This document shows, in pieces, positions 19,237 through 61,048 of a stretch of DNA of 64,000 bases. The stretch spans positions 1 to 64,000 of the forward strand of contig CASDZK010000022.1 in assembly GCA_949286165.1 (NCBI GenBank), given 5' to 3'. Each line of letters begins with the position of its first letter. Position 1 is the stretch's first letter. Under the pieces are notes generated by a model that saw only the letters and a program-made list of their open reading frames with translations, made no database searches and had not been told where the DNA came from. A program made the translations under genes and the position numbers. This DNA comes from an uncultured Alistipes sp. GTDB lineage: Bacteria; Bacteroidota; Bacteroidia; Bacteroidales; Rikenellaceae.

Positions 19237-20877
<1,641 letters not shown>

Positions 20878-35590: not shown

Positions 35591-35680
35591 TAAAAAAAGA
35601 GACTGACTAAAAAGTTGTGATTTAAAGTTTCTCATATTAATTCTCCAGAAGATAAAATCACTTTTTAGTCAGCCTCTTTT
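35591..35680. terminator. Bidirectional terminator or small inverted-repeat element between convergent genes
   Basis: GAGACTGACTAAAAAGT (from 35598) pairs with ACTTTTTAGTCAGCCTC (35659-35675), with flanking A-run and T-run, around a roughly 45-nt centre. The position between convergent genes and the A/T runs fit a two-way terminator. The long imperfect inverted repeat also resembles the ends of Bacteroidota insertion sequences, so a MITE remnant is an alternative. Confidence 0.65.
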
Positions 35681-35697
35681 TTCATTACTTTCAATTC

Positions 35698-41445: not shown

Positions 41446-41467
41446 CAACACATTTCTCAGAAAACAA

Positions 41468-41509
41468 AAAGTCTGTGCAGAAGTTTTAGAGACGCTCTGC
41501 ACAGACTTT
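41468..41509 (+). terminator. Terminator of ddl-nagB
   Basis: A perfect 14-bp stem (AAAGTCTGTGCAGA/TCTGCACAGACTTT) with a 14-nt loop, then TTTAC. It begins 22 bp after the stop of the fusion gene. Confidence 0.85.
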
Positions 41510-41540
41510 TACAAATCCAATCACATTTATTGAAACCACT

Positions 41541-41942
41541 ATGGCTACTATTTTTACTCGAATCGTACAAGGAGAAATTCCTTGTTACAAAATAGCGGAA
41601 AGCGACCGTTTTTTCGCTTTTCTGGATATCAATCCTTTGACAAAAGGACATACGCTCGTCATTCCGAAAACAGAAACCGACTATTTGTTCGACTTGTCCG
41701 AAGAAGAATACGCCCAGCTCATGCTGTTCGCTAAGCGAGTAGCGCATGCCATTGAAAAAACGGTTGCCTGCAAACGGATAGGAATGGCCGTTATCGGCTT
41801 GGAAGTACCTCATGCCCATATCCATTTAATCCCCATCAATCGGGAAAGCGACATGTTGTTTTCCAATCCCAAACTCAAATTATCCACCGAAGAAATGCAA
41901 CAAATCGCCCGAAACATTTCCGAAACGTTTAAAGCATTATAA
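41541..41942 (+). CDS. HIT family hydrolase
   Basis: A 133-residue histidine-triad protein of the HINT type. It shows FLDINPLTKGHTLVIPK near residue 30 and the catalytic triad HAHIHLIPI near residue 92. HINT proteins hydrolyse nucleoside phosphoramidates and AMP conjugates such as AMP-lysine. The physiological substrate is unknown here. It is cytoplasmic. It follows the ddl-nagB terminator and precedes the DUF3575 gene by 5 bp, so these two are probably co-transcribed. Confidence 0.93.
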   Translation: MATIFTRIVQGEIPCYKIAESDRFFAFLDINPLTKGHTLVIPKTETDYLFDLSEEEYAQLMLFAKRVAHAIEKTVACKRIGMAVIGLEVPHAHIHLIPINRESDMLFSNPKLKLSTEEMQQIARNISETFKAL

Positions 41943-44829: not shown

Positions 44830-47800
44830 ATGAAAAAATATTTTTATACTTTGGTTTTGGCCGCAATATTGCCGCTTGCAACTTTGGCACAGTCCCCGGC
44901 CAACCGAATTCCCAAAACAGTTGTTGCGGACGTTTTGGCGCAAATGCCGGCCAAAAATGTCGAAATATACAATAATATGATGCGGGATCTCGTCGCATCA
45001 GGTCGAGAAGGCATAACCATTTTGACCGATATGATGCAGTCTCCTTCGTCGGCAGACAACCAAGCCATAGAATACGCCATCGGTGGATTGTCCAACTACG
45101 TAACCGCTACCGGACAGGAAACCGCACGCAAAACCGTTACGGAAGCTTACATCAAAGCATTGAATGCGGCTACCGACCGGGACATAAAAGCCTTTTTCCT
45201 ATCGCAACTCATCATTACAGGCGAAAACGATGCCATTGAAACGGCCAAGCAGTATGCCGTAGACCCGGATTTATACAATGAGGCCCTTCGCGTATTGGTT
45301 GCCGTCAATACACCAGAGTCCCAACAGGCAGTACGTGAACTGGCGGAAAAGATTCCCTCCAAAGCCGCTGCGGCCAAAGCCATCGGAGACCTGAAAATTA
45401 CCGAATGCGAACCTCTGCTGCTTTCATGGCTCGATGCAACTGCCGATAACGCAGAGAAAAAAGCGATTTTATACGCTTTGGGTGTTACCGGTAGTGAGGC
45501 GGCCCTAAAACCGTTGAATAATGCGGCCGCCCAAGTAGGTTATCAGTACGAAGAAACAGAAGCGACAGATGCTTACGTAACGCTCGTATGTCGCCTGAAC
45601 GACACGAAAGCTGCCGCTAAATTACTGAAAAACAAATTGCCGCACGTCAGAACCGCAGCTTTGAATATTCTGGTCAAATCGAATCCGGGGAAAGCCGTTT
45701 CGTACATTATTTCGGCATTATCTGACGAATCGCGCCCTTACAGAAATGCGGCATTGAACGCAGCTTCATGTTCCCCGAATGTCAAAGAAGCCGTAAAAGA
45801 AACCGTAATCGTCAAATTATCCAAATATCCGGAAACAACGCAAACGGATATTATTCATTGGTTGGGACTGAACCGATACGCAGACGCGGAAAAAATAATT
45901 ATTCCTTACGTATCTTCCAGTAATTCGGAATTGTCCGAAGCAGCCATGTACGCTTTAGTCCGCATAGGCAATCAAGAAGGGTTACAAGCCGTTGCCAACA
46001 GTTTGAATACGACAAATTCAGAACAGATCGCAGCAGCGAAAAAAGCCTTGTCATGGAGTCCGTTATCCTCCAATGCCTTGCTGTTGAACATGTACAGCAA
46101 GGAACTTCCGGAAGAAACGCAATGTGCCATCATTGAGTTAATCAGTACCCGTACGGAGAACGACACCTGGAAAGACAAGGTCATGGCGTTATGCCAATCC
46201 GTTCTCTCCGGGAACACCCCCGCAAGCGTGCAAGAAGCGGCCTATAAAGCACTCGTTCCTATCGCCACAAAATCCCAAGCCAAAACACTGGCCGATATCC
46301 TGACAAAAACTCCCGAATCACATCTGGAATACGTACAACAAGCCTTAGGAAAAGCAACGGCACAAATGGGACAAGCAGGTTTCAGCTTCATTGACGAATT
46401 GATCCGGCAAGCTCCCAATGACAAAAAACATTTGTACTATGCTGTATTACCTTATACCGGTTCGAAAGAAGCGTTACAACTTATTGCCGCAGCAATGGAA
46501 TCTTCCAATGCGACTGTAAAACATGCCGCAGTGAAAACCTTGACGACATGGACCACTCCAGATGCCGTTGAATTACTATTCCAAGCCGTAAAAGATCCTG
46601 CCGTAAAAGATTTACATCAAGCGGCCGTAGAGCGCTACACCCAACTGGTAACTGCCAGCAGAGTTCCTTCCGCCCAACGACTGCTTCAACTGCGCAAAAT
46701 GCTCGATATCGCACAAACCGATACGCAACGGAACACTCTGTTGCAAGCCATAGGCAACTGCCCAGAATTCAACTCCGTTATCGTAGCGGGCGATTACCTC
46801 GACAATGAAGCAACCCGGCATACGGCAGGAACGGCAATTATGAATGTCGCCCTGAAAAACAAATCGATCAACGGGCCCCAAATCAAAGCCATCCTCCAAA
46901 AAGTCATGGATACGCGTGGCGGCAGCGATGCCACATACGACAAGGAAGCCATCAAAAAACATCTGAACGAGTTGGCATCCGAAGAAGGATTTGTTTCCAT
47001 TTTCAACGGAAAAGATCTGAGCGGGTGGAAAGGATTAGTAGCCAATCCTATCGCACGGGCTAAAATGAGTCCTGAAGCATTAGCGCAAGCTCAAGAAAAA
47101 GCGGACGAAATCATGCGCAAAGGTTGGAAAGTCGAAAACGGGAACCTCATATTTACCGGTCAAGGCGATAATCTATGCACCGAAAAGAAATACGGCGATT
47201 TCGAAATGTACGTAGATTGGATGATTACCGACAAAGGAGACGCAGGGATTTATCTCCGCGGTACTCCGCAAGTACAAATATGGGATACTTCCCGGGTAGA
47301 GGTAGGTGCACAAGTCGGCTCCGGAGGTTTATACAACAATACTAAACATCGGAGTACTCCGACTTCGCTAGCCGATAACAAAATCGGAGACTGGAATACA
47401 TTTTACATCAAAATGGTAGGCGAACGAGTAACCGTATTGTTGAACGGCGTAAAAGTGGTGGACAATGTCATCATGGAAAACTACTGGAACCGGAATATCC
47501 CCATCTTCCTCGAAGAACAGTTGGAATTACAAGCCCACGGAACATTGGTAGCCTATCGGAACATTTATGTCAAGGAACTTGAACCGGTAAAAGTATTCGA
47601 ACTAAGTCCTCAAGAAAAAGCCGAAGGATACAAGGTGCTGTTCGACGGAGTTTCCATGCATGAATGGGTCGGCAACACAACCGACTATGTCGCTGAAAAC
47701 GGGACGATATCCCTCTATCCGCAAAACGGCGGCGGCGGAAACCTTTATACCAAAGACGAATATAAGGATTTTATTTTCCGTTTCGAATTCCAATTGACAC

Positions 47801-48198
47801 CAGCCGCTAATAACGGATTAGGCATACGTGCGCCGCTCGAAGGAGATGCGGCTTATGTAGGCATGGAATTGCAGATTCTCGACAATGAACATCCTGTTTA
47901 CAAAGATTTGGAAATATACCAATACCACGGTTCCGTATATGGCGTAATCCCTGCCAAAAGAGGATTTTTAAAACCCGTCGGAGAATGGAATTACGAAGAA
48001 GTGACCGTAAAAGGCAACCGGATAAAAGTAGTACTCAACGGAGAAACCATTTTGGATGGCGACATTGCCGAAGCCAGCAAGAATGGAACGATAGATCATA
48101 AAGACCATCCGGGATTGAAAAACAAAACCGGACATATCGGATTTCTCGGGCATGGTTCGCCTGTCAAATTCAGAAATATCCGGATAAAAGAACTTTAA
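44830..48198 (+). CDS. Exported HEAT-like repeat protein with two DUF1080 (3-keto-glycoside lyase/hydrolase) domains
   Basis: 1122 residues with a Sec signal peptide (LVLAAILPLATLAQ). Residues about 25-700 are an alpha-helical solenoid of HEAT-like repeats rich in Ala and Leu. Two DUF1080 jelly-roll domains follow. The first, about 718-915, has FVSIFNGKDLSGWKG, GDFEMYVDWMITDKGDAGIYLRG-type strands and LEEQLELQAHG. The second, about 930-1122, has VLFDGVSMHEWVG, ELQILDNEHPVY and GHIGFLGHGSPVKFRNI. DUF1080 proteins include 3-keto-disaccharide hydrolases and 3-keto-glucoside lyases. The solenoid may bind a partner or substrate. It is co-transcribed with the oxidoreductase 33 bp upstream. The combination in one chain is unusual. 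Confidence 0.88.
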   Translation: MKKYFYTLVLAAILPLATLAQSPANRIPKTVVADVLAQMPAKNVEIYNNMMRDLVASGREGITILTDMMQSPSSADNQAIEYAIGGLSNYVTATGQETARKTVTEAYIKALNAATDRDIKAFFLSQLIITGENDAIETAKQYAVDPDLYNEALRVLVAVNTPESQQAVRELAEKIPSKAAAAKAIGDLKITECEPLLLSWLDATADNAEKKAILYALGVTGSEAALKPLNNAAAQVGYQYEETEATDAYVTLVCRLNDTKAAAKLLKNKLPHVRTAALNILVKSNPGKAVSYIISALSDESRPYRNAALNAASCSPNVKEAVKETVIVKLSKYPETTQTDIIHWLGLNRYADAEKIIIPYVSSSNSELSEAAMYALVRIGNQEGLQAVANSLNTTNSEQIAAAKKALSWSPLSSNALLLNMYSKELPEETQCAIIELISTRTENDTWKDKVMALCQSVLSGNTPASVQEAAYKALVPIATKSQAKTLADILTKTPESHLEYVQQALGKATAQMGQAGFSFIDELIRQAPNDKKHLYYAVLPYTGSKEALQLIAAAMESSNATVKHAAVKTLTTWTTPDAVELLFQAVKDPAVKDLHQAAVERYTQLVTASRVPSAQRLLQLRKMLDIAQTDTQRNTLLQAIGNCPEFNSVIVAGDYLDNEATRHTAGTAIMNVALKNKSINGPQIKAILQKVMDTRGGSDATYDKEAIKKHLNELASEEGFVSIFNGKDLSGWKGLVANPIARAKMSPEALAQAQEKADEIMRKGWKVENGNLIFTGQGDNLCTEKKYGDFEMYVDWMITDKGDAGIYLRGTPQVQIWDTSRVEVGAQVGSGGLYNNTKHRSTPTSLADNKIGDWNTFYIKMVGERVTVLLNGVKVVDNVIMENYWNRNIPIFLEEQLELQAHGTLVAYRNIYVKELEPVKVFELSPQEKAEGYKVLFDGVSMHEWVGNTTDYVAENGTISLYPQNGGGGNLYTKDEYKDFIFRFEFQLTPAANNGLGIRAPLEGDAAYVGMELQILDNEHPVYKDLEIYQYHGSVYGVIPAKRGFLKPVGEWNYEEVTVKGNRIKVVLNGETILDGDIAEASKNGTIDHKDHPGLKNKTGHIGFLGHGSPVKFRNIRIKEL

Positions 48199-48225
48199 AA
48201 ATTTCTGTAAACAAAAACAAAATAA

Positions 48226-48260
48226 GGCTGTCTCAAAATAAAATTTGAGACGGCCTTTTT
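48226..48260 (+). terminator. Terminator formed by the IS end behind the DUF1080 gene
   Basis: GGCTGTCTCAAAAT pairs with ATTTGAGACGGCC around a short A-rich loop and is followed by TTTTTT. It lies 27 bp after the stop codon and coincides with the left inverted repeat of an IS remnant. Confidence 0.75.
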
Positions 48261-48478
48261 TGTATCAGCAAAAACAGACAAGTCCGAACTTTACTCAGCC
48301 AAGACTTGCCCGTTTCCCTAATTTTTCGTATCATATTTTACCTCCGGATTTAGGCAGTTTTATTTTCAGGAACGTGTTTAGCGTATCATTGAACAGATTA
48401 ATCATGAGAAATACTGTAGCCAGTATTTAAAATACGAAAAACTGAAAAAGTTCATCTTAACTTTATTTTGAGACGACC
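48226..48478 (-). mobile_element. Internally deleted insertion sequence (MITE-like)
   Basis: The 253-bp interval has terminal inverted repeats: GGCTGTCTCAAAATAAA at the left, and its near-complement ending GAGACGACC at the right (GGTCGTCTCAAAATAAA on the minus strand). Between them, on the minus strand, a start-like ATG near the right end opens a short Phe-rich peptide (MNFFSFSYFKYW). In another frame 31 codons (48426-48331) read as a transposase-like C-terminus (ATVFLMINLFNDTLNTFLKI). The transposase body is missing. The IS family is not identified. It coincides with the switch in strand composition. Confidence 0.65.
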
Positions 48479-48513
48479 TCTTTCTTTATGAGTGGAAGCT
48501 TCTATGTCGGGAC

Positions 48514-49035
48514 TCAATAAATGAAAAAACCTACGAATCCGGATAAGGCCATGACTAAAATGGGATTCATGTTTTTGTATAACAATAACAAGGCTCCGGC
48601 GAAAATGAGATAACTTTTAAAATCGATAAAATTTTCGCGTGTCATGAGTTGTAATGCAGCAGACAGGATCAAACCGATCACTACGGGATAGATTGACCGC
48701 ATGATAGCAGAAACATAAACATTGTTTCTCAGTCTAACAAAAAAATAGGAAGCGATAAGCATGATAAGCAAAGATGGAAGACATACACCAAAGGTAGTCA
48801 ATACCGATCCCCATACGGAATGGGTAACGGTATACCCGATATAAGTGGCGCTATTGATGGAAATGGGCCCCGGCGTCATTTGTGAAATCGCTATGATATT
48901 CGTAAATTCCGTATCGCTGATCCATTGGTGTTCGGTCACGACCTGATGTTGTATTAATGACAACATGGCATATCCTCCTCCAAATCCGAACAATCCGATT
49001 TTAAAAAATGCGATAAATAATTGCCAATAGACCAT
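48514..49035 (-). CDS. chrA: Chromate transporter family protein, short chain (2 of 2)
   Basis: A 173-residue membrane protein equal to one half of the long-chain CHR transporter. It shows the diagnostic FKIGLFGFGGGYAMLSLIQ near the N-terminus, MTPGPISINSATYIGY and several hydrophobic helices. Short-chain CHR proteins work as pairs, and its partner ends 11 bp upstream. Family members export chromate or move related anions, and the true substrate in gut anaerobes is unknown. It is the last gene of the lysC operon. Confidence 0.9.
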   Translation of the reverse strand: MVYWQLFIAFFKIGLFGFGGGYAMLSLIQHQVVTEHQWISDTEFTNIIAISQMTPGPISINSATYIGYTVTHSVWGSVLTTFGVCLPSLLIMLIASYFFVRLRNNVYVSAIMRSIYPVVIGLILSAALQLMTRENFIDFKSYLIFAGALLLLYKNMNPILVMALSGFVGFFIY

Positions 49036-49046
49036 TCCGTTATTCC

Positions 49047-49583
49047 TTATTTCGATTTGTGCGTTTTATAATAAGTATATGCGACGCCGGCAATGATGCC
49101 GATGCAAATCAGGTAAAGCGGGGATATTCCCAATAATATGAGACCGGCAACGGCTATGAACAACGGGTATTCCCATTTGCGGATGTTTCGGGCAAAAACG
49201 AATACCGTATATAATATTAATGCCACGACGGAAGGTCGTAACCCGTTGAATACTTTCATTACTTCGGGATTTTCGCTGAAATCTTGAAAAAAAACGGCGA
49301 TTAGCAACAGTATGATGAAAGAGGGGAGCGTACTACCTAAAAATCCGGCAATTCCTCCCGCCAGTTTGTGTTGTCTGTATCCGATTAGGATAGCGGTATT
49401 GACCGCCATAGGACCGGGAGATGCCTGGGCTAACGATAAATAATCCATGAACTCTTTTTCCCCCATCCAATTGTTTTTTTGGGTAATTTCTCTTTGCATC
49501 ATCATAATCATAGTATAACCTCCTCCAAAAGTAAAAAGCCCAATTTTGAAAAATGACCAGAAAATATGGAGTAATTGAATCAT
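49047..49583 (-). CDS. chrA: Chromate transporter family protein, short chain (1 of 2)
   Basis: 178 residues with FKIGLFTFGGGYTMIMMMQ, ASPGPMAVNTAILIGY and five or six hydrophobic helices. It is homologous to the next gene (FGGGY and SPGP/TPGP motifs shared), so the two arose by duplication and probably form a heterodimer with opposite topology. It starts 9 bp after the pseudouridine synthase gene in the same leftward operon. Confidence 0.9.
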   Translation of the reverse strand: MIQLLHIFWSFFKIGLFTFGGGYTMIMMMQREITQKNNWMGEKEFMDYLSLAQASPGPMAVNTAILIGYRQHKLAGGIAGFLGSTLPSFIILLLIAVFFQDFSENPEVMKVFNGLRPSVVALILYTVFVFARNIRKWEYPLFIAVAGLILLGISPLYLICIGIIAGVAYTYYKTHKSK

Positions 49584-49592
49584 GTTATAAGA

Positions 49593-50291
49593 TTATTGAT
49601 TGGATTGATGCGATTCGAAAAATAGCCATAAATTGTCTTGACCAGGAACGGGAGCTACGATACGGACATTTGCTTTCGTTACAGGATGCGTGAATGCTAT
49701 TTCCCGAGCATGCAACGATATGCTGCCGTTTTCGTTTGATCTGGAAGCCCCATATTTCAAATCTCCTTTGATCGGAAATCCCGCTTTGGATAACTGACAT
49801 CGGATTTGATGATGCCGCCCGGTAATCAAATTTATCTCCAATAGGTGGTAATGAGTGCCGGAAAGGAGGTAGCGGTAATTCAATCGTGCTTCTTTAGCGT
49901 TTTTTCTGGGAGCATCATAAGCATATGACCGATTTTTTTTAGGATTGCGTTCGATGTAATGTACCAATTCTCCTGTCAAGGGAAAAGGTTTCGATTCGAT
50001 TATGGCCCAATAAATTTTCTTGATTTCCCGTTTTTTTACTTTTTCACACATCCGGGTAAGGGCTTTGGAAGTTTTGGCAAAAATTACGACCCCGCTTACC
50101 GGACGATCTATACGATGCACGACCCCTAAAAAAACAGCACCAGGCTTGGCATCGCGGCATTTGATGAATTCTTTTAAGTCATTTTCCAACGACGAATCGC
50201 CGGAATTGTCGCTTTGCACAAGCTGGCCCGCTTTTTTATTGACAATCAATAAATGGTTGTCTTCGTATAAAATGGTTTTCGAATCGAACAT
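49593..50291 (-). CDS. RluA-family pseudouridine synthase
   Basis: A 232-residue RNA-modifying enzyme with the catalytic HRIDRPVSGVVIFAKT motif (Asp nucleophile), LITGRHHQIRCQL and IKGDLKYG. It lacks an N-terminal S4 domain, like RluA and TruC, so the target could be tRNA or 23S rRNA. The ATG overlaps the lysA stop by one base (TAATG), indicating translational coupling. Confidence 0.92.
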   Translation of the reverse strand: MFDSKTILYEDNHLLIVNKKAGQLVQSDNSGDSSLENDLKEFIKCRDAKPGAVFLGVVHRIDRPVSGVVIFAKTSKALTRMCEKVKKREIKKIYWAIIESKPFPLTGELVHYIERNPKKNRSYAYDAPRKNAKEARLNYRYLLSGTHYHLLEINLITGRHHQIRCQLSKAGFPIKGDLKYGASRSNENGSISLHAREIAFTHPVTKANVRIVAPVPGQDNLWLFFESHQSNQ

Positions 50292-51454
50292 TACAAGTCA
50301 CTGCTGAATACGGACGGTTTTAATGACCGGAGATTATAATGCGAAGCCATACTGCTTCCGTAAGCTCCTGCCGAATAAAACACCAGAATATCGCCCCGCT
50401 GGGTTTCCGGAAGTTGGATATCACGATCGAAAACATCGGTAGATTCGCAAACTCCTCCTGCAATACTGTATGTATGATTCGGTTTGTCCGACGAAATGTT
50501 CTCTATTTTGTGATGAGCCTGGTACAGAGCCGGACGCATTAGTTCCGTCATTGCAGCGTCCACGATAACAAAATTTTTGCCGGAAGCAGTATTTTTGGTC
50601 AATAAAACTCTGGAAACGAGACAACCCGATTGGGCGATGATAGAACGCCCTAATTCAAAATGTAAAGTTTGGTTTTTTTTCAAGACGATTCCCTCTGCGA
50701 AAATTTTGAAGTATTCGTCAAAGTCAGGGATAGGATCGGCTATCGGATCAATATAGTTGATTCCCAAACCTCCTCCTACGTTAATATGATCCAAAACAAT
50801 ACCTTGTCCTTCGAACCAGGTTACGATCGTATTGACTCTCGAACAAAAATTTCGGAAAACGTCCATATTGAGAATCTGGGAACCGATATGGAAATGCAGG
50901 CCGACGATTTGTATGTTTTGTAATTTGTGCAAAGATTCGATGGCCATGTCGATTTCTTTATATGAAATGCCGAATTTGCTGTCGGCATGGCCCGTGGAAA
51001 TGTTTTTATGAGTTTGCGGATCCACATCCGGATTGATTCGCAAAGCGATCCGGGCGCATAATTCGCGTTGGCGGGCCAATTCGTTGATGATCTCCAGTTC
51101 TGCAAGCGATTCGCAATTGAAACAGAATATATTGTTTTCCAAACCGCAGATAATTTCCTCATCTGTTTTTCCTACGCCGGCAAAAACGATTCTGGCCGGT
51201 TCGAAACCACAGTTGATTGCTTCCTGCACTTCTCCTCCGCTTACGCAATCCGCACCGAAACCGTATCCTGCAATATGTTTGAGAATACGGGATTCGAAGT
51301 TGGCTTTCATGGCATAATGTACTTTGAATCCGTATGAATCCGACAGTTGTTTGACTTTGGATAAAGTGGCGTCCAACAATTGCATGTCATAGAAATAACA
51401 GGGAGTCTGTAAATGCGACAAGGTAGTTAGTTTCTTGAGGTTGTCTTTTAGCAT
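50291..51454 (-). CDS. lysA: Diaminopimelate decarboxylase
   Basis: A 387-residue PLP fold-III decarboxylase that converts meso-diaminopimelate to lysine. Features are HYAMKANFE (PLP Lys), GADCVSGGE, HFHIGSQ, the phosphate-binding NVGGGLGINY, and the C-terminal GGVCESTDVFDRD and YSAGAYGSSMAS with catalytic Cys and Tyr. It is slightly shorter than E. coli LysA (420), typical for Bacteroidota. It overlaps lysC by 7 nt and the downstream gene by 1 nt. Confidence 0.95.
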   Translation of the reverse strand: MLKDNLKKLTTLSHLQTPCYFYDMQLLDATLSKVKQLSDSYGFKVHYAMKANFESRILKHIAGYGFGADCVSGGEVQEAINCGFEPARIVFAGVGKTDEEIICGLENNIFCFNCESLAELEIINELARQRELCARIALRINPDVDPQTHKNISTGHADSKFGISYKEIDMAIESLHKLQNIQIVGLHFHIGSQILNMDVFRNFCSRVNTIVTWFEGQGIVLDHINVGGGLGINYIDPIADPIPDFDEYFKIFAEGIVLKKNQTLHFELGRSIIAQSGCLVSRVLLTKNTASGKNFVIVDAAMTELMRPALYQAHHKIENISSDKPNHTYSIAGGVCESTDVFDRDIQLPETQRGDILVFYSAGAYGSSMASHYNLRSLKPSVFSSDL

Positions 51455-52758
51455 AGGTTGAAAAGGTTATTGTTTAATAAACGCAATACTTCTTTTTTGT
51501 ATTCCGAATCTACCAAAAAAGCCATGCTGCGTGCGCTGGCTCCGTACGAAATCATTTTTACGGGAATCGATTTGATACTTTCCAGAATATGTGCGGCCAG
51601 CCCTGCCTGACTGTATCCGATTTTACCGACCACGCATATGATAGCGCTGTTGCGTTCCACTTCGATTTTCCCCAACGGTTTCAGATCTTCTACGATGGAA
51701 TCGATATTGAGATCATTGTCTATAGTCAGGGAAACGGCGACTTCCGAAGTCGTGATCATATCGATCGAGGTTTTGTGGTTTTCGAATACTTCGAAAACCT
51801 GCCGAAGAAATCCGTAAGCCATCAACATTCGGGCGGAACATATCCTCACAACGGTAATGTTATCTTTAGCCGCTACGGCATGAAATCGTTTTTGGCTATC
51901 TCCGTCGTTGGTAATCAATGTGCCTTCGGCATTTCTGTTCATTGTATTCTTTAACCGAACGGCAATTCCATGTTCCTTACATGGCTGTATTGTAGCCGGA
52001 TGAAGTATTTTGGCTCCGAAATAGGCCAATTCCGCCGCTTCGTCGAAACTCATTTTCCGAATGGGGTAGGTATTTTCCACGTATCTCGGGTCATTGTTAT
52101 GCATACCGTCGATATCGGTCCATATCTGAACTTCGCTGGAATCGATGGCCGCTCCGATTAAGGCCGCACTGTAATCGCTTCCTCCGCGGCCTAAATTATC
52201 GAGTTTTCCTTCAGCATTGGTGCAAATGAATCCCTGAGTGACAAAAAAGGTATCCTTGTCGCCCGTTTCGATTTCCCGTTTGATGTTTTTCAATTTATCG
52301 GTATCCACTTTGCCGTTTTCATCGACGAACATGAAATCCGGGATATTGATTAATTTCGCTTTATATCCTATTTCTTTCAAATAAAACGTAAAAATGGCGG
52401 ATGTCAACAACTCTCCTTGAGCAAGTATCTGTCTTTCCGTGGACGGACCGTCGTAAGAAGCGGCGGCATTTGCGATTCCGGAAAACACCTGTTCGCATTT
52501 TTCCAAAGCGGCGGCCTGATAATCGGTCAATAATTCCCGGACACATGTGGTATATTTATCCGAAAGAAACGAAACGACAGGCGTGATGTCTTCTTTATTT
52601 TTAGCCAGAGAGGATATCTTTACCAAAGAGTCGGTTGTCCCGGACATAGCGGATAAAACGGTAACTTTAGCATTTTCACCTTTGATGATTTCTGCAACCA
52701 TACGCATATTTGCAGAAGAACCTACGGATGTACCTCCGAATTTTAGTACTTTACTCAT
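51448..52758 (-). CDS. lysC: Aspartate kinase, monofunctional
   Basis: A 436-residue enzyme for the first step of the aspartate family pathway, phosphorylating aspartate. It has KFGGTSVGSS at the N-terminus, GRGGSDYSAALI and DIDGMHNNDPR in the kinase domain (1 to about 290), then two ACT domains (about 300-436) with MLMAYGFLRQVFEVF and VVGKIGYSQAG. Direct coupling to lysA suggests a lysine-pathway isozyme, with feedback by lysine likely but not proven. It is first in the operon lysC-lysA-pseudouridine synthase-chrA-chrA. Confidence 0.95.
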   Translation of the reverse strand: MSKVLKFGGTSVGSSANMRMVAEIIKGENAKVTVLSAMSGTTDSLVKISSLAKNKEDITPVVSFLSDKYTTCVRELLTDYQAAALEKCEQVFSGIANAAASYDGPSTERQILAQGELLTSAIFTFYLKEIGYKAKLINIPDFMFVDENGKVDTDKLKNIKREIETGDKDTFFVTQGFICTNAEGKLDNLGRGGSDYSAALIGAAIDSSEVQIWTDIDGMHNNDPRYVENTYPIRKMSFDEAAELAYFGAKILHPATIQPCKEHGIAVRLKNTMNRNAEGTLITNDGDSQKRFHAVAAKDNITVVRICSARMLMAYGFLRQVFEVFENHKTSIDMITTSEVAVSLTIDNDLNIDSIVEDLKPLGKIEVERNSAIICVVGKIGYSQAGLAAHILESIKSIPVKMISYGASARSMAFLVDSEYKKEVLRLLNNNLFNLC

Positions 52759-52850
52759 TATGATATCAACGTTTTAAATTTCTGTTTATCAGTCATATAA
52801 AAAAGATATTTCGATAGCTTGGTTATCTCGTTTCCTTTGAAAATGACCCC

Positions 52851-52858
52851 CAAATTTA
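52851..52858 (-). promoter_or_regulatory. -7 promoter element for the lysC operon
   Basis: TAAATTTG on the minus strand, a full TAnnTTTG match, 92 bp before the lysC ATG. The predicted leader of about 85 nt could hold regulatory structure. No lysine riboswitch core is evident. Confidence 0.5.
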
Positions 52859-52911
52859 TAACATATCATTTTTTAATGAAAATATTTTTTGTTTTTTTGT
52901 TCAATAATTAC

Positions 52912-52919
52912 TATTTTTG
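52912..52919 (+). promoter_or_regulatory. -7 promoter element for the ACT-like protein gene
   Basis: TATTTTTG on the plus strand, 38 bp before ATG 52958 and 54 bp from the divergent lysC -7 element. It excludes the more upstream in-frame start at 52889. Confidence 0.5.
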
Positions 52920-52957
52920 TTAAAATATTAACTCGTAAAAAAAATGGAAAGTATTGT

Positions 52958-53629
52958 ATGGTAACGATTCCCAGTGCAGTTGAAAAAGTCATTAAAAAGA
53001 AGCCGTTTTTAGAGAGTGCTTTGATAGAAGGAATTGTCAATTTGTCCGCTTTGTCCCGGAAAATCAAACCGGAGATAGAAAAGGAATTGGGAAAAGAGGT
53101 AAACGACGGTGCTGTGATTATGGCCTTGAACCGTCTGGTGCCTCGACTGGAATTGATATCCTCGATGAAATTTCAAAAAGTAGTGGAAAATATCGGGGAT
53201 ATCATCGTTCGTTCCAATTTGGCCGATTATGCTTATTTGAACAGCAAAACCTTATATACAAAACAAGCGAAATTGTTGGAGAGGATTAACGATTTAAGCG
53301 ATGTGTTTTGTACCTTTTCACAAGGAGTCAGTGAAACGACAGTAGTGGTAAGCAGTACGGTTTCCGGATTAGTAGAAGAAGTGTTTAAAGACGAGGTTAT
53401 GATTTCCCAAACGGACTTTTTGTCTTCCATTACGGTTAAATTACCGTATGAAAACACTATCTATCCGGGGGTATATTATTATATCTTTAAAGAATTGGCA
53501 TGGGACAATATCAATATTAAGGAAGTAATCAGCACAACGAACGAATTTACTGTGATTGTGGATGATGCTGATATTCACCGGGCTTTTTCGATTCTTATGG
53601 AATCGAAAAAACAGTTTTCGATGAAATAA
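52958..53629 (+). CDS. ACT-like domain protein, divergent from lysC (putative regulator)
   Basis: 223 residues from ATG 52958; the frame is open to 52889, but that lies upstream of the promoter element. The N-terminal third (IVNLSALSRKIKPEIEKEL, GAVIMALNRLVPRLE) is helical and HTH-like. The C-terminal half has two segments with the pattern of paired ACT domains, as in aspartate kinases: the second reads LAWDNINIKEVISTTNEFTVIVDDADIHRAF. It lacks the kinase domain. Divergent placement against lysC suggests an amino-acid-sensing regulator of lysine genes. This is inference; the gene is not a member of a family I can name. Confidence 0.65.
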   Translation: MVTIPSAVEKVIKKKPFLESALIEGIVNLSALSRKIKPEIEKELGKEVNDGAVIMALNRLVPRLELISSMKFQKVVENIGDIIVRSNLADYAYLNSKTLYTKQAKLLERINDLSDVFCTFSQGVSETTVVVSSTVSGLVEEVFKDEVMISQTDFLSSITVKLPYENTIYPGVYYYIFKELAWDNINIKEVISTTNEFTVIVDDADIHRAFSILMESKKQFSMK

Positions 53630-53653
53630 CCGACTTTCGGTCATTCGTCGAGA

Positions 53654-53685
53654 TTTGGCGAATGACCGAAAAAGCCCTATCTTTA
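53654..53685 (+). promoter_or_regulatory. Promoter of the 53735-55480 gene pair
   Basis: TTTG (53654-53657), a 20-bp spacer and TATCTTTA (53678-53685, one mismatch). The -33 box lies inside a 12-bp stem-loop (53636-53647/53659-53670) that may be the end of the previous gene or an operator. Confidence 0.5.
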
Positions 53686-53734
53686 ACGTTTCAATCGTTA
53701 AATGTTTTTGTTTTAATTTAACTCAATAAAAAAT

Positions 53735-54022
53735 ATGGCAAGTCTTAGAAAACTGAAAAAAGAAATTGATTATCTGGTAAGTGAAGTAATTTCCGACGGG
53801 TATGCCTGTATGGTTGTTCATGCGTCTAAAAACAGAGATGCCGTTATTGACATAATAGAAGAAGCTGTAGATGTACGGAATAAACTGATTGATCGGGCAA
53901 ATCATTCAGACGAAAAACATAATACTCGTTTAGTCAAAAAATATTATCGGACATTACGGGCCGAAATGTTTGACAGTATTGATGCACTGTTTCAGAAATT
54001 GAGTGACATTTGTAAAGCTTAA
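53735..54022 (+). CDS. Conserved small helical protein, 95 residues
   Basis: A 95-residue soluble protein with no signal peptide and a predicted all-helical fold (SLRKLKKEIDYLVSEVISD near the N-terminus, YRTLRAEMFDSIDALFQKL near the end). I know of no function or catalytic motif for it. It lies 15 bp upstream of the GH109-type gene and appears co-transcribed with it from the promoter at 53654-53685, though the cytoplasmic nature makes a direct role in glycan breakdown unlikely. Confidence 0.75.
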   Translation: MASLRKLKKEIDYLVSEVISDGYACMVVHASKNRDAVIDIIEEAVDVRNKLIDRANHSDEKHNTRLVKKYYRTLRAEMFDSIDALFQKLSDICKA

Positions 54023-54037
54023 TAATTATAAAATTAA

Positions 54038-55480
54038 ATGAAGAACATGAAAAGAACGACTTTTCCCGGAATCGCAAGCATGATGTTATTGGTGTCATGC
54101 CTGACTGCGACCGGATTTTTAGGAGTTTCTTGCACCTCTCAAAGCAAGGAACCCGCTAAACCGCAAATGATATCGTTACCTGTACCGGAACGGGAAAGCG
54201 GCCAAACAGATGTTGTCGGATTGGTTGCTCCGGCTTTGGACACTGTCCGGGTAGGATTTATCGGCTTGGGAATGCGCGGTCCCGGAGCAGTGCAGCGTTT
54301 TACTCATATCGATGGAACCAAAATCGTCGCTTTATGCGATTTGCGTCCCGAATGCGTGGAAAACGCCCAAAAAATACTGACGAATGCGGGTTTACCGGAA
54401 GCGGCGGCTTATACCGGTAGCGAAGATGCATGGAAACAATTGTGCGAACGGGACGACATCAATCTCGTTTATATTGCTACAGATTGGAAACACCATGCGC
54501 AGATGGCAATTTATGCTATGGAACACGGCAAACATGTCGCGATAGAGGTTCCTGCCGCTATGTCGATGGACGAAATTTGGGCTTTGATCAATACGTCTGA
54601 AAAAACTCGGAAGCATTGTATGCAATTGGAAAATTGCGTGTACGATTTCTTTGAATTGACGACGTTGAATATGGCGCAACAAGGATTGTTTGGAGAGATT
54701 ATGCACGTAGAAGGTTCATATATCCATAATCTGGAAGATTTTTGGGGACAATATTGGAATAACTGGCGTTTGGATTATAACAGGACGCATCGCGGAGATG
54801 TTTATCCGACACATGGCATCGGCCCTGCTTGCCAGTTGCTGGATATTCATCGTGGAGACAAAATGAACTATTTGGTTTCCATGGATACCAAGGCGGTCAA
54901 TGCTCCGCGATATATCAAGGAAAAGACAGGAGAAGAAGTTACCGATTTTAAAAATGGCGATCATACTTTGACCCTAATTCGTACGGAAAACGGGAAAACG
55001 ATTCATATTCAACACAATGTAGTGTCTCCTCGTCCGTATAGCCGTATGTATCAATTGACGGGAACAGATGGTTTTGCCAATAAATATCCGGTAGAAGGGT
55101 ATGCTTTGAGACCGACGCAGGTTTCTTCGGATGTCGCGCCTGACCACGAAAATCTTTCGGCTCACGGTTTTGTTCCCGAAGACGTTAAAAAAGCTTTGAT
55201 GGAGAAATACAAACATCCGATTCATCGGGAATTGGAAGAAACGGCAAAGAAAGTAGGCGGTCATGGAGGTATGGACTATATTATGGATTACCGTCTGGTC
55301 TATTGTCTGCGGAACGGTTTGCCTTTGGATATGGATGTGTATGACTTGGCAGAATGGTGCTGTTTGACGGAACTAACAGGTATTTCTATCGAAAACAACA
55401 GTGCCCCCGTAGAAATTCCCGATTTTACGCGCGGAGCCTGGAATAAGGTAAAAGGGTACAGACATGCCATGAAAAATTAA
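54038..55480 (+). CDS. GH109-type lipoprotein (NAD-dependent alpha-N-acetylgalactosaminidase family)
   Basis: 480 residues. A signal ends in LGVSC (lipobox), then a linker, then a Gfo/Idh/MocA Rossmann fold: VRVGFIGLGMRGPGAVQRF, ALCDLRPE, YIATDWKHHA, and VAIEVPAAMS in place of the usual EKP. The Tyr-x-x-His pair YPTHGIGPA (Tyr256, His259) matches the catalytic pair of Elizabethkingia GH109 (Tyr225, His228). GH109 removes alpha-GalNAc by transient NAD-dependent oxidation at C3. The enzyme is therefore expected to act on host O-glycans or blood-group A type ends from the cell surface or periplasm. Starts at 54038 or 54047 are possible. Confidence 0.87.
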   Translation: MKNMKRTTFPGIASMMLLVSCLTATGFLGVSCTSQSKEPAKPQMISLPVPERESGQTDVVGLVAPALDTVRVGFIGLGMRGPGAVQRFTHIDGTKIVALCDLRPECVENAQKILTNAGLPEAAAYTGSEDAWKQLCERDDINLVYIATDWKHHAQMAIYAMEHGKHVAIEVPAAMSMDEIWALINTSEKTRKHCMQLENCVYDFFELTTLNMAQQGLFGEIMHVEGSYIHNLEDFWGQYWNNWRLDYNRTHRGDVYPTHGIGPACQLLDIHRGDKMNYLVSMDTKAVNAPRYIKEKTGEEVTDFKNGDHTLTLIRTENGKTIHIQHNVVSPRPYSRMYQLTGTDGFANKYPVEGYALRPTQVSSDVAPDHENLSAHGFVPEDVKKALMEKYKHPIHRELEETAKKVGGHGGMDYIMDYRLVYCLRNGLPLDMDVYDLAEWCCLTELTGISIENNSAPVEIPDFTRGAWNKVKGYRHAMKN

Positions 55481-55508
55481 GGGATTTTAATTTGGATATT
55501 ACGAAATG

Positions 55509-55548
55509 AGGGTAACCTAAAAGTCAAGGACAGACTTAAGGTTACCCT
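55509..55548 (+). terminator. Terminator of the GH109 transcript
   Basis: A 10-bp stem (AGGGTAACCT/AGGTTACCCT) with an inner AAGTC/GACTT stem, then TCTTTTTT. It begins 29 bp after the stop codon. Confidence 0.85.
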
Positions 55549-55620
55549 TCTTTTTTCAGAATGTCTGAAAAGTCCTGTTGAGTTCGGATGCTGAATTGGG
55601 GGAGGTAACAATACGAATGA

Positions 55621-55666
55621 AGAACGGTTATCTTGCTAAAAATAAACGAGATAACCATTCTTTTTA
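55621..55666 (+). terminator. Hairpin upstream of the IS1182 remnant
   Basis: A 14-position stem with one mismatch (AGAACGGTTATCTT/GAGATAACCATTCT) followed by TTTTAT. It may shield the transposase frame from read-through. The stretch 55560-55720 shows no other gene. Confidence 0.6.
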
Positions 55667-55721
55667 TGGTAAAAGATTGTTATGTTTATAGTGCTTAAAA
55701 AAAGATAAACAGTCATTCATC

Positions 55722-56500
55722 ATGAGAGTAAAGATAGTATATAAATCGGACAATCAGAACGACAATCTTCTTTTTCCGCCTACATTGGGGGAGCTGATAC
55801 CGGAGAACCATCTGGTCCGGACAGTGAGTACGGTAATAGACAGGCTTGACATCTCGAGGATAGAATCGACCTACAAGAGGGGCGGGACGAGCAGCTTCCA
55901 TCCCCCGAAAGCTGCTGAAGGTTCTCATGTATTCCTATATAATAACATCTACTCCAGGCGGAGGATGAAGCATCTTCTGAGGGAGAACGAGAACTACATG
56001 TAGCTCTCGGGGATGAGCCGGCCGGATTTCAGGACGATCAACCGATTCAGGAGCGAGCGTCTGTCGGACGGTCGATTTGACGAGGTGTTCCGTCAGGTTG
56101 TCCTGTTACTGAACGGGGAGGGCCTGCTATCGTTGAAGGTACAGTACATAGACGGGACAAAAATAGAGTCGGCGGCGAACGGGTACACCTTCGTGTGGAA
56201 AGACGGCGTGGAGAAGAACATGTCGAAGTTGGAGGCGAAAGCGGACGCAGTCCTCAGGACGGCGGAGGAAGCCTCGCAATGGAGAATACGGAATGCCAGG
56301 AGGAAGGGCCCCTGTACGGAGGACTTTCCGGAACGAACCGAAAGGATACTGAGGAGGATGGACGAGCAGGGCATCAGCGACAGGAAATTTCACAGGAGCG
56401 TCCGGAAGGTTAAAGAGGAGTCCATTCCGAAGCTGGGACTAGTCGACAAAATTCATGATACTCATGTCAGTAATGACGAGATATGTATTCGTCAATAAGT
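55722..56500 (+). pseudogene. IS1182-family transposase, disrupted and truncated
   Basis: The N-terminal half of an IS1182-type transposase (LGELIPENHLVRTVSTVID, LSGMSRPDFRTINRFRSERL, LSLKVQYIDGTKIESAANGY, a zinc-free helical linker). A TAG at 56001 replaces the Trp codon expected in YMWLSGM. A segment near 55911-55945 reads sensibly only in the +1 frame (LLKVLMYSY), so two compensating indels occurred. The catalytic C-terminal half is missing: after about 56440 the sequence changes character and ends at a stop at 56498. No intact inverted repeats were seen. It is a dead element. Confidence 0.85.
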
Positions 56501-56661
56501 TTCATCCTGTGTTCCCTTGTAAGTCCGCTGTGAACCCTTATTTTTGACTTGATGTCGGTAAATACCGCCTCCAGTCCGTTGTTCGTGACACTGTCCAAAA
56601 TTTTGTATAAATGGCAACAGGATTCAGTTGTAAGTTTCTTCTTATACTGGATTCTGGACAC
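56467..56661 (-). pseudogene. C-terminal fragment of a second transposase
   Basis: 64 codons on the minus strand ending NNGLEAVFTDIKSKIRVHSG, then LTREHRMKLIDEYISRHY and a stop. The pattern NNxLE-x-F-DIKxKxRVHxGL is that of the end of DDE transposases that close with a short basic tail; the family is uncertain. The upstream part of the gene is missing. It abuts and slightly overlaps the broken IS1182 frame, so one element probably inserted in, or recombined with, the other. Confidence 0.6.
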
Positions 56662-56732
56662 TATAAAATAAAAAATACGGAACTCTATTTTGAATCCCGT
56701 ATTTTCTATTTACACAAAATATTTTATAGTGC
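56661..56732. other. Nested inverted repeat in the IS graveyard
   Basis: CACTATAAAATA (56661-56672) matches TATTTTATAGTG (56721-56732) inverted. Inside it a second hairpin pairs AATACGG with CCGTATT. Both strands have A/T runs, so it could stop transcription in both directions, or be the end of a lost element. It borders repeat copy B. Confidence 0.5.
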
Positions 56733-56733
56733 C

Positions 56734-56802
56734 TTGCAACCGAATATCTCTCTGCATTATCCTAAGAGAAGCCGACCTCTAAAAATCTCTTTTGGGGGCC
56801 TC
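56734..56802 (-). repeat. Dispersed ~69-bp repeat, copy B
   Basis: Homologous to 73-141, in the same orientation. The hairpin arms are partly decayed here (GCCGACC against GGGGGCC). It lies 27 bp beyond the rho stop on the minus strand, the same position relative to a gene end as copy A behind tRNA-Glu. Confidence 0.6.
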
Positions 56803-56828
56803 GTTTTTATGCTGGACAGGTATCGATA

Positions 56829-58577
56829 CTATTCGTTCATCTTGATTAAAAATTGTTTGTTATCCGCAGTTGCTTCCATTTCTTTTTTTATCAATTCCAT
56901 CGCTTCTACGGAGTTCATGTCGGTCAAATGACGCCGGATGATCCAGACTTTCTTCAAAGTTTCTTTATCTGTCAACAAATCGTCGCGGCGAGTGCTGGAG
57001 GCAATGATATCGACGGCCGGATATATCCGTTTGTTCGATAATTTCCGGTCGAGTTGCAATTCCATATTTCCGGTCCCTTTAAATTCCTCAAAGATGACTT
57101 CATCCATTTTCGAGCCTGTATCGATCAAGGCCGTTGCGATGATGGTCAAAGATCCTTTTTCTTCCGTGTTTCGGGCCGCACCGAAAAAGCGTTTGGGTTT
57201 GTGCAAAGCGTTGGCATCCACCCCTCCGGACAATACTTTTCCCGAGGCCGGTTGTACCGTATTGTAAGCTCGAGCCAAACGAGTGATCGAGTCAAGCAAG
57301 ATCACTACGTCATGTCCGCACTCTACCAGGCGTTTTGCTTTATCCAAAACCATTTCCGCAACTTTTACATGGCGGGCGGCCTGTTCATCGAAAGTAGAGG
57401 CGATGACTTCGGCTTGCACACTTCGTTGCATGTCGGTTACTTCTTCCGGACGTTCATCGATCAACAGAACGATCATGTAAACTTCTGGATGATTATCGGC
57501 GATAGCATTGGCTATTGATTTCAATAACATGGTTTTCCCTGTTTTAGGTTGGGCTACGATCAAAGCTCGTTGCCCTTTGCCGATAGGGGAAAACATATCA
57601 ATGACCCGATTCGATAAGTTATTGTGTTTGCCGCCAGTCAGATTGAATTTTTCTTCGGGAAATAACGGGGTAAGATATTCGAACATAACCCGGTCGCGCA
57701 ATGCTTCGGGCAACAGACCGTTGATCCGATTGATTTTTACCAACGGGAAATATTTTTCGCCTTCTTTGGGCGGTCGTATTTCTCCCGATATCATATCCCC
57801 TTGTTTTAATCCATAGGTTCTTATTTGATAAGGGGATACATATATGTCATCCGGAGAATTCAGGTAATTGTAATCGGAAGAACGCAAAAAGCCGTATCCG
57901 TCACTTAAAATTTCAAGAACTCCTTCGCTTTTTATGATACCCAGATATTCTTCTCGAACAGACGAAGTACCTATTTTTTTATTAGGAAAACGGAATTCGT
58001 TTTTTCGTTCGCCAGATGAAGATTCGTTGCTTTCCGGTTCAGTCGTTTCCGGTTCAGTCGTTTCCGGTTCTTCGGTCTGTGTCGTTTCGGGGGTATTGTC
58101 GGATTCCGTATGGTTGTCTTGTTCAGAAGAAGGTACGTTTTTTTCCGTGAGTTTTATCTGGTTATTATCATCAGTTGTTTCTACTTGCAAAACGGATTTT
58201 TCAGGTTCTTTCTCTTCCTTGATCACGAAAGAGTTTTTTGCAGGTCTCCCTCGTTTTCTTTTTACGGGAATTACGGGAACGTCTGCCGGCTCAGAAATAG
58301 GCGGTTCCGTATGTTCACTCGTATTAGTATCGCTGTTGTCAGTAGTAGTGCTGATTCTTTTTCTGTTTTTACGGGTAATACCCGTAATTTTTTTGGTCTC
58401 GACTGGTTTGTCTATCGGCTCCGCTGAAGGAGCTACGGCCATATTGGCGTTCATTTCCGCAATCAATACGACCAATGCTTCCTTTTTGTATACATCAACA
58501 CGTTTCAAACCCAAGGATTTAGCAATGACTCTCAACTCCTGAATCGTCTTGGCTCTTAATACATCAATATCTTGCAT
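56829..58577 (-). CDS. rho: Transcription termination factor Rho
   Basis: A 582-residue hexameric RNA helicase, longer than E. coli Rho (419). The N-terminal helical domain (1 to about 40) is separated from the RNA-binding cold-shock-like domain (from about 210, [15 protein letters not shown]) by a disordered insert of about 165 residues rich in Thr, Glu, Lys and Ser, including a run of PETTE units. The ATPase domain has [12 protein letters not shown] (Walker A), [25 protein letters not shown] and the R-loop region. A long insert is typical of gut Bacteroidota and was reported to drive Rho phase separation in B. thetaiotaomicron. It is monocistronic. Confidence 0.96.
58031..58075. repeat. 15-bp tandem repeat inside rho
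   Basis: Three consecutive 15-bp units (TTTCCGGTTCAGTCG twice, then a variant ending TTCGG) code on the minus strand for PETTE-type pentapeptides in the disordered part of Rho. Because the unit is a multiple of three, slippage would change the insert length without breaking the frame. Confidence 0.85.
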
Positions 58578-58660
58578 TTTATGATTTGTTATGTAATTTT
58601 GTAAGGGGATTAAACGGTTTCAAAAAACCAACCGTTCGTTGACGTGGATTTTTGTTTCTA

Positions 58661-58668
58661 CAAAGGTA
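58661..58668 (-). promoter_or_regulatory. -7 promoter element for rho
   Basis: TACCTTTG on the minus strand, 83 bp before the rho ATG, giving a leader of about 75 nt. No -33 box is clear. Confidence 0.5.
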
Positions 58669-58706
58669 GAAAAAATATTGAAAAATAAATATTTTATATT
58701 GAAATA

Positions 58707-59477
58707 ATGGATTTTTTGGCAATTATACCGGCTCGTTACGCCTCTTCCCGGTTTGAAGGAAAACCGTTGGTGTCTATTTTCGGCAAACCGATGATTCAGC
58801 GGGTATATGAGCGGGTAGCGGATGTTTTCGATTATTGTGTCGTAGCGACCGATGACGAAAGAATAGCCCAAGTCGTTATCGAGTTCGGCGGACGGGCGAT
58901 CATGACTTCGGTACATCATAAAAGCGGTACGGATCGTTGTTGCGAGGCTTATATGAAAGCGGAACAATATTTTGAAAAACCGTTCGACGTCGTGGTCAAT
59001 ATACAAGGAGACGAGCCTTTTATTCATTCCGGTCAGTTGGAAATTATTCGAAAATGTTTCGAAGAGGATCCCGAATGTCAGATCGCTACTTTAATTAAGC
59101 CATTTGCTCCGGATGAAGATATTTTCAATCCGAATACTCCCAAAGTCGTCGTTTCCAAACAAGGATATGCGCTTTATTTCAGCCGAAGCGTAATTCCTTA
59201 TTTACGCTCGGAGCATGATTCGCAAAATTGGGGCAATCGGCATGTTTTTATGAAACATATCGGCTTGTATGCTTACCGCAACCGTGTTTTACGGGAAATT
59301 ACGGCATTGGAGCAAGGAGTGTTGGAACAGTGCGAATCGTTGGAGCAATTGCGTTGGCTGGAAAACGGATATCGGATAAAAACGGCAATTACTTATCAGG
59401 AGTCGCATGCGATCGATACACCGGCGGATCTCGAATATGTATTGACGCATTATAAGAATTGTTTGAATGAGTTGTGA
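58707..59477 (+). CDS. kdsB: 3-deoxy-manno-octulosonate cytidylyltransferase
   Basis: A 256-residue enzyme that activates KDO with CTP to CMP-KDO for lipopolysaccharide inner core synthesis. Motifs are IPARYASSRFEGKPL (nucleotide binding), VVNIQGDEPF (metal site), HVFMKHIGLYAYR and the C-terminal ESHAIDTPADLE. Normal length. It is divergent from rho. The next gene starts 11 nt before its stop, so the two are translationally linked. Confidence 0.96.
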   Translation: MDFLAIIPARYASSRFEGKPLVSIFGKPMIQRVYERVADVFDYCVVATDDERIAQVVIEFGGRAIMTSVHHKSGTDRCCEAYMKAEQYFEKPFDVVVNIQGDEPFIHSGQLEIIRKCFEEDPECQIATLIKPFAPDEDIFNPNTPKVVVSKQGYALYFSRSVIPYLRSEHDSQNWGNRHVFMKHIGLYAYRNRVLREITALEQGVLEQCESLEQLRWLENGYRIKTAITYQESHAIDTPADLEYVLTHYKNCLNEL

Positions 59478-60462
59478 TCGAAGTCGTTATACTGAAATGT
59501 TGGCCGGTCTGTCGGAATGGCCGACGATACCTTTCGGAGTGTTGGGAAAGGCGAAGATAGAGAATCCGTGGTTTACGGAAAAAAATATCCGTATCGCTTT
59601 CGATGCGATTAGAAAAAATTTTCTTTCTTCTGAAAAAGTAAGCGAATGGCTGAAACATTACCCCGATAAATCACTGCACGGTAAAAAGATTGGAATCATT
59701 ATGGCCGGCAACATCCCGATGGTCGGCTTTTCCGATTTGTGGTCGGTCGTACTTACCGGAGCGGAAGCATGCGTGAAATTGTCTTCCAAAGATACGACAT
59801 TGATGCAGTGGATGATTCAGCAAATTACACGGACAATTCCTTCGATAACGGTACGTCCATTGCAGGAAAACGACCAGTTGGATGCGATTATCGCTACGGG
59901 TAGCGATAACGCCAATCGGTATTTTCGTGCGTTTTACGGACATATCCCATCCGTATTTAGAGGCAATCGTTACAGTTTGGCCGTATTATCCGGCAATGAA
60001 TCAGAGGAAGAATTGTCCGGTTTATGGGAAGATGTGTTTTTATATTATGGATTGGGATGCCGTAATGTTTCCCATTTGTTAGTGCCGGAAAATTTCGATC
60101 CTCAACGGCTGATTCGCTGCTGGACGCGGGAAGGGAAAAGGATTACCCACCCGATGTTTCTGCATAACTATTTGCAAAATAAGGCGATTATGCGTATGGA
60201 AGAAATGGAGTATTTCGACGGAAAATATTTTACTTTATCCAGAGAAAAAGAACCGTCTTTTTGGCTGAGCCACTTGACTTACTCGTTTTACCGGTCGGAA
60301 GAGGATGCGACAGCCTGGATTGAAAACCGAGCCGATCGATTACAGTGTGTTGTATCAAATTTATCGATACCGTATAAAACGACTTTCGGAAAATCTCAGT
60401 ACCCGGAATTGCAGGACTATCCCGATCATGTGGATTTAATGGATTTTTTACATGCGTTGTGA
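59467..60462 (+). CDS. LuxC-type acyl-CoA reductase
   Basis: 331 residues of the aldehyde-dehydrogenase-like LuxC family, which reduces acyl-CoA or acyl-ACP to the aldehyde. Seen are IIMAGNIPMVGFSDLWSVVLTGAE (nucleotide-binding region), the candidate catalytic Cys198 in GLGCRNVSHLLVPE, and a C-terminal domain with HVDLMDFLHAL. It is shorter than Vibrio LuxC (about 480), but similar short members occur across Bacteroidota. It overlaps kdsB by 11 nt. The physiological acyl substrate is unknown; a second in-frame ATG lies at 59497. Confidence 0.85.
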   Translation: MSCDRSRYTEMLAGLSEWPTIPFGVLGKAKIENPWFTEKNIRIAFDAIRKNFLSSEKVSEWLKHYPDKSLHGKKIGIIMAGNIPMVGFSDLWSVVLTGAEACVKLSSKDTTLMQWMIQQITRTIPSITVRPLQENDQLDAIIATGSDNANRYFRAFYGHIPSVFRGNRYSLAVLSGNESEEELSGLWEDVFLYYGLGCRNVSHLLVPENFDPQRLIRCWTREGKRITHPMFLHNYLQNKAIMRMEEMEYFDGKYFTLSREKEPSFWLSHLTYSFYRSEEDATAWIENRADRLQCVVSNLSIPYKTTFGKSQYPELQDYPDHVDLMDFLHAL

Positions 60463-60514
60463 TAGTTTTTAGCTACATTTACAGATATTGTTTTATGTTA
60501 TGGGAGATACGAAA

Positions 60515-61042
60515 ATGTCTATGGTATTTAATTTCAGAATGTTAAGCGATGAAGACGATAATTTTATTCGTGATTATGAAGTCCCTTACGATATGACGTT
60601 GAAAGATTTCCACCGCTTTATTTGCGACGATTTGCAATATGATGCTGCAGAAATGGCTTCCTTTTTCAAATCAGATAAAAGCTGGCAGAAATTGAAAGAG
60701 TTTACGTTGGTGGATATGGGCCTACATCCGCAGGATGATCTGGACGACGATTTAATGCCTGTGGCTATGGAGCAGGTTTTATTGGGGCAGATTATTCGGA
60801 AGGAACACGACCGTTTGTTGTTGGTTTACGATTTATTCGAAGACAGGGCGTTTTTCATTGAATTGATGGCTACTCGGAAAACGAATCCGGATATGGAATA
60901 TCCAAGAGTTGCATTTGCTAACGGCGAGGCACCAAACCAATTTGATGCAGAAAAAAATGTGGAAAATAAATCCATTTTTGAAGAAGCGATGGATGACTGG
61001 GGAAACTATGAAGGCGACGATAACTACGATGACGAATATTAG
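60515..61042 (+). CDS. IS1096-passenger TnpR / pRiA4b ORF-3-like protein
   Basis: 175 residues from ATG 60515 (upstream ATG at 60500 and a TTG at 60488 are also in frame). The N-terminal part MVFNFRMLSDEDDNFIRDYEV and the DLFEDRAFFIEL block match the pRiA4b ORF-3-like fold, a beta-rich domain of unknown function often mis-named from an IS1096 passenger. The C-terminus is extremely acidic (DDWGNYEGDDNYDDEY), as usual in Bacteroidota homologues. It lies 6 bp before miaA and is probably co-transcribed with it. It is not evidence of a mobile element here. Confidence 0.82.
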   Translation: MSMVFNFRMLSDEDDNFIRDYEVPYDMTLKDFHRFICDDLQYDAAEMASFFKSDKSWQKLKEFTLVDMGLHPQDDLDDDLMPVAMEQVLLGQIIRKEHDRLLLVYDLFEDRAFFIELMATRKTNPDMEYPRVAFANGEAPNQFDAEKNVENKSIFEEAMDDWGNYEGDDNYDDEY

Positions 61043-61048
61043 CGTTGT

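Follow-up and report, generated by a model that had tools for sequence, protein, structure and literature searches.

A sharp GC-skew switch in an uncultured Alistipes genome is probably the edge of a chromosomal rearrangement

The + strand of the window, a stretch of 64,000 nucleotides from contig C22 of the draft genome of an uncultured Alistipes sp., switches from C-rich to G-rich at about 48.2-48.5 kb. The switch is genuine and very sharp. It is likely to be a junction left by a chromosomal rearrangement, most simply by an inversion within one replication arm. The original prediction had left the choice between a replication origin and the edge of an inversion. The second half of that choice held up, as the joint is absent from a sister species (G009), a reciprocal switch exists on contig C32, and the orthologs of the left block are reversed in skew. 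The origin fared badly: there are no DnaA boxes, the spacer is convergent, the junction is unconserved and the genome has at least two other switches of the minimum type.

The Switch in Strand Composition

Every one of the 29 curated genes to the left of 48,198 had a negative GC3 skew on the + strand, and each of the 15 to the right of 48,514 a positive one, in either orientation. The left block (1-48,198), with its C-rich + strand at third codon positions, has a mean GC3 skew of -0.20, and the right block (48,514-64,000) one of +0.17; the latter continues beyond the window until the contig ends at 72,071, with 7/7 open reading frames (ORFs) positive there. The 44 curated genes came from 46 ORFs, two small overlapping ones being removed before the count. 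One of these (41,457-41,825, - strand), the sole ORF on the left with the wrong sign, overlaps a better + ORF, while the other (58,620-59,027, - strand) overlaps 58,707-59,477 (+ strand) and had the expected sign.

A gene-level change-point analysis gave a 2dlnL of 213.9; when the gene order was permuted 2000 times, the value reached 112.7 at most. At the level of single sites, the best change point was found at 48,345 (likelihood support 48,300-48,508), i.e., within the spacer between the two blocks. Its 2dlnL was 240.4, and the same analysis of control contigs yielded 13.5 for C25 and 30.3 for the first 40 kb of C59. The intergenic bases concur, with a skew of -0.128 on the left and +0.076 on the right. 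The plain GC skew in 2-kb steps is blurred by gene orientation, which creates large plateaus in the cumulative curve; this curve falls and then rises, and is lowest at about 46-48 kb. The negative-to-positive change that had been read from four sequence lines was thus confirmed, and the base counts quoted for those lines (17 C/11 G, 22 C/13 G, 10 C/14 G and 6 C/16 G) are exact.

The change had also been claimed to be independent of gene orientation, which was borne out at third positions. The mean skew moves from -0.19 to +0.18 in the + genes and from -0.23 to +0.17 in the - genes, and because both means change sign, orientation is not the cause of the switch. Inversions have been inferred from skew before (Merrikh & Merrikh 2018, PMC6220195), an approach criticised in PMC9098844, where third positions and comparative checks are advised; both third-position skew and ortholog checks were applied here.

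The Junction and Its Flanks

The last gene of the left block (44,830-48,198, + strand) ends a + operon and encodes a protein of 1122 aa with HEAT-repeat and 3-keto-disaccharide hydrolase domains (Pfam PF06439, PF13646). Its ortholog in G009 is 76-77% identical and has a coding GC3 skew of +0.42, as against -0.21 in the window. A GTDB scan found relatives of the protein mostly in Parabacteroides, Tannerella and other Bacteroidales, with two "Alistipes" records only, which is a patchy distribution.

Downstream of this gene lies an intrinsic terminator (48,224-48,263, + strand) with a 14-bp stem and a T tail, whose RNA fold reaches -23.6 kcal/mol (z -7.8). An equivalent hairpin occurs at the matching place in G009 (fold z -9.1), and the 68 bp that follow the terminator align with the G009 tail, a result that 0/500 shuffles equalled. 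With the terminator counterpart and the aligned bases taken together, the sequence of the left block thus runs on as far as about 48,330, which fits the change point of the skew. Likelihood support and the similarity to the G009 tail place both the change point and the putative breakpoint of the rearrangement in the interval 48,300-48,513.

The whole spacer (48,199-48,513) measures 315 bp and separates convergent genes. The right block begins on its far side with two chromate-transporter halves (chrA), an RluA-type pseudouridine synthase, lysA and lysC (48,514-52,758, - strand), where the + strand is G-rich at third positions. Toward the spacer, the order of this - operon is lysC-lysA-rluA-like-chrA-chrA, and contig C211 of G009 keeps both this order and the sign of the coding skew.

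A deleted insertion sequence (IS) at 48,226-48,478 had been proposed to coincide with the switch. As described, this element is unsupported, since its left end is half of the complete terminator that is conserved in G009. The arm motif GGCTGTCTCAAAAT, with up to one mismatch, has only three occurrences in the genome, compared with two for a reversed control. The terminator half and the rarity of the motif together leave little to support a deleted IS, and the link of an IS to the switch is weak. A six-frame translation was read for a transposase remnant; one clean open stretch of 26 residues (48,382-48,459) resembles a protein fragment, and a search limited to the available loci found no relative. 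The spacer also contains a half-hairpin (48,459-48,479) that is 86% complementary to 48,225-48,245 (fold z -2.0), a candidate decayed terminator or repeat end.

Comparison with a Sister Species and the Reciprocal Switch

G009 is the sole other species of the genus that was compared. On its contig C211, the chrA pair is followed by csp (cold-shock), a ferredoxin/PAS gene and a phosphatase-like frame, the first and last of these being recognised from sequence alone. All nine ORFs of that contig share one skew sign. The synteny comparison suggested for 47-50 kb showed that the 48.2-kb joint is absent from G009, where chrA continues into the csp locus; of the two putative ancestral joints, it is chrA/csp that is present there.

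In the window's own genome, the csp/ferredoxin-PAS locus lies at about 56.2 kb of contig C32, adjoining the gene of an ATPase that we take, from its domain pattern, to be of the ABC-F type. Pfam domains were found for this ATPase gene and for the ferredoxin/PAS gene. C32 switches in the opposite sense to C22, with 43/48 ORFs positive on the left and 7/7 negative on the right, and its change point lies at 56,086 (support 54,954-56,153). It follows that, if the two joints exchanged partners, the skew would become uniform at each. Such a pattern is typical either of one inversion whose two ends lie in the same arm or of a misassembly. The second joint predicted for the ancestor is that of the 44,830-48,198 gene with the ABC-F gene; the G009 contig that carries the ortholog of the former stops 156 bp past it, and a match to the ABC-F gene was located, by coordinates only, on G009 contig C19.

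The orthologs of the two blocks behave differently. On the available G009 contigs, 19/21 orthologs of the left block show a third-position coding skew of the opposite sign; the two exceptions (genes at 17,341 and 19,237) keep their sign in G009 in weakened form, at +0.21 -> +0.08 and +0.30 -> +0.07, respectively. For the right block, the sign is the same in 7/7. The left block has therefore changed its direction of replication relative to G009 and the right block has not; in this comparison of two species of the genus, either state could be the derived one.

As a landmark in complete relatives, lysA was rejected: it lies near the skew maximum of the complete genome of G048 (about 0.42 Mb) and within a stretch of one prevailing sign in those of G008 and G056, and the gene order is too shuffled for direct comparison. 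At 35,640-35,683, away from the breakpoints, the window holds a short dispersed repeat with several copies in G009 and one in common with C32.

A Probable Inversion within One Replication Arm

An inversion would account for these observations as follows. Mutation linked to replication would have enriched the leading strand of each segment in G, and inverting a segment inside an arm would reverse its sign, which makes the skew change abruptly at either end. The rearrangement would have brought the operon of the 44,830-48,198 gene and the chrA operon together end to end, with the spacer (about 48,330-48,513) between them and the second end of the inverted segment at about 56.0 kb on C32. A single inversion, the lineage in which it would have taken place and the mechanism of breakage are all things that we infer from this arrangement, in an assembly that is a draft of 71 contigs and 87% complete, where C22 and C32 are separate contigs and the linkage of the two ends is assumed. 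One recent inversion from a G009-like ancestor is insufficient for the reversed skew of the left block, since a recent inversion leaves the skew from before the event in place; at least one further event, or a partial re-equilibration, is required.

Inversions within one arm are to be expected in this phylum, as the bias of Bacteroidetes toward symmetric inversions is described as only weak (PMC5850607). The present case resembles the skew flips at inversions within a replichore in PMC6220195: the sign changes sharply at both ends of the block, the change is independent of orientation, and the neighbourhood differs in a sister species. As differences, polarity is taken here from third codon positions and orthologs, and the ends lie on two contigs of a draft genome.

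Alternative Explanations

The alternative that survives best is an assembly error in both C22 and C32, in which case the true joints would be chrA/csp and the 44,830-48,198 gene next to the ABC-F gene. The genome is a draft metagenome assembly, hairpins are present at both joints, and the exchange of partners restores uniform skew at both sites. This is what a flipped misassembly would be expected to show: Chen et al. (2020, PMC7111523) flipped repeat-bounded segments to repair the cumulative GC skew. However, long inverted repeats are where errors of this kind would be expected, and the joints here have none. The longest exact match between them is 10 bp on either strand, a local alignment of the two joints was no better than shuffles, and the five 22-mers that the contigs share (all on the reverse strand, none on the forward) sit at about 35.6 kb, away from the joint. 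Because no exact match between the joints exceeds 10 bp, misassembly is the less likely reading; it still stands, at a low probability.

Somewhat less probable again is that 48.2-48.5 kb is the chromosomal origin of replication, with forks leaving it in both directions. The sign and sharpness of the switch match those of an origin, as a minus-to-plus change is also seen at bacterial oriC. The dnaA gene is on another contig (C59), but origins need not adjoin dnaA; as a landmark it was uninformative, as the skew is positive in almost all of the first 40 kb of that contig and changes just once, at 2.4 kb (2dlnL 30). Unlike oriC, the site has no cluster of DnaA boxes, is unconserved and is one of several switches in the genome. 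The earlier remark that DnaA boxes are missing proved correct, none being found with up to one mismatch within 47.9-48.8 kb. When two mismatches were allowed, the 315 bp between the convergent genes (48,199-48,513) held 0 DnaA-box-like words and ranked 189th of 260 spacers, and a consensus scan of the window stayed at the level of chance. Moreover, the joint is missing from G009, in which the skew stays the same beyond chrA.

A chromosome with a single origin has one minimum-type switch. A survey of stretches from all 71 contigs, which covered 1.52 of 2.56 Mb including the window, with five very short contigs that hold no usable ORF, found at least three (C22 at 48.3 kb, C2 at 19,953 and C21 at about 55.4 kb). 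Since C2 and C21 have such switches as well, the 48.2-kb site is not uniquely origin-like. The minus-to-plus switch of C21 lies between overlapping convergent ORFs; as the start of that contig is positive, an opposite switch must exist between 20 and 50 kb, in its unsampled part.

The switch on C2 is similarly sharp (support 19,851-20,147), with 13/15 ORFs negative on the left and 7/7 positive on the right. It falls inside an AT-rich spacer of 555 bp (C2:19,621-20,175) that contains six TTATC words, compared with 2.4 expected, and ranks 4th of 260 for DnaA-box-like words (nominal P 0.04, weak). The flanks are an M16 peptidase/FKBP side and a gene resembling lysylphosphatidylglycerol synthase. 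They are also neighbours in G009, at near-equal spacing (C95:11931-13208 and 14539-15618), and are not neighbours in any of the five complete relatives searched. Given the flanks conserved in G009 and the modest excess of DnaA-box-like words, both of which are missing at 48.2 kb, C2:19.6-20.2 kb is the better candidate for an origin, as yet an unproven one.

In the complete genome of G048, a relative from the family, the skew minimum lies beside nadA. A spacer upstream of this gene (about 1.7787-1.7792 Mb), in or beside the minimum, holds four DnaA-box-like words against 0.36 expected, and it is likely to be the origin for the genus of G048. In the present genome, nadA (C25:38.2 kb) sits in a nearly uniformly positive contig and marks no switch, so it was rejected as a landmark. 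As nadA marks the minimum in one genome and no switch in the other, a simple argument from a conserved origin is weakened, and the flanks of the origin seem to move within the Rikenellaceae. Neither the C32 spacer nor the G048 minimum resembled the C22 spacer more than shuffled sequences did. No published work was found that combines Alistipes, oriC and GC skew.

More than one working origin would give more than one minimum-type switch, and the 48.2-kb spacer could then be an active second or relocated origin without classical DnaA boxes, with its terminus at 56 kb on C32; we regard this as very improbable. Gene orientation does change near the switch, but that orientation or a foreign island alone produced it is hardly credible, as + and - genes switch alike and each side carries housekeeping genes that have orthologs in G009.

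Significance

The switch most likely reflects a type of event that is common among bacterial genomes, a chromosomal rearrangement, probably an inversion within one arm, whose reciprocal edge lies on C32. When a single contig of a draft genome from a metagenome shows a sharp, origin-like change of skew, synteny is needed before an origin is called. At 48.2 kb, most of the question of origin versus rearrangement is settled by a sister species and by the reciprocal switch on another contig. The pair of breakpoints may be useful for the rate at which skew re-equilibrates after an inversion in the Rikenellaceae.
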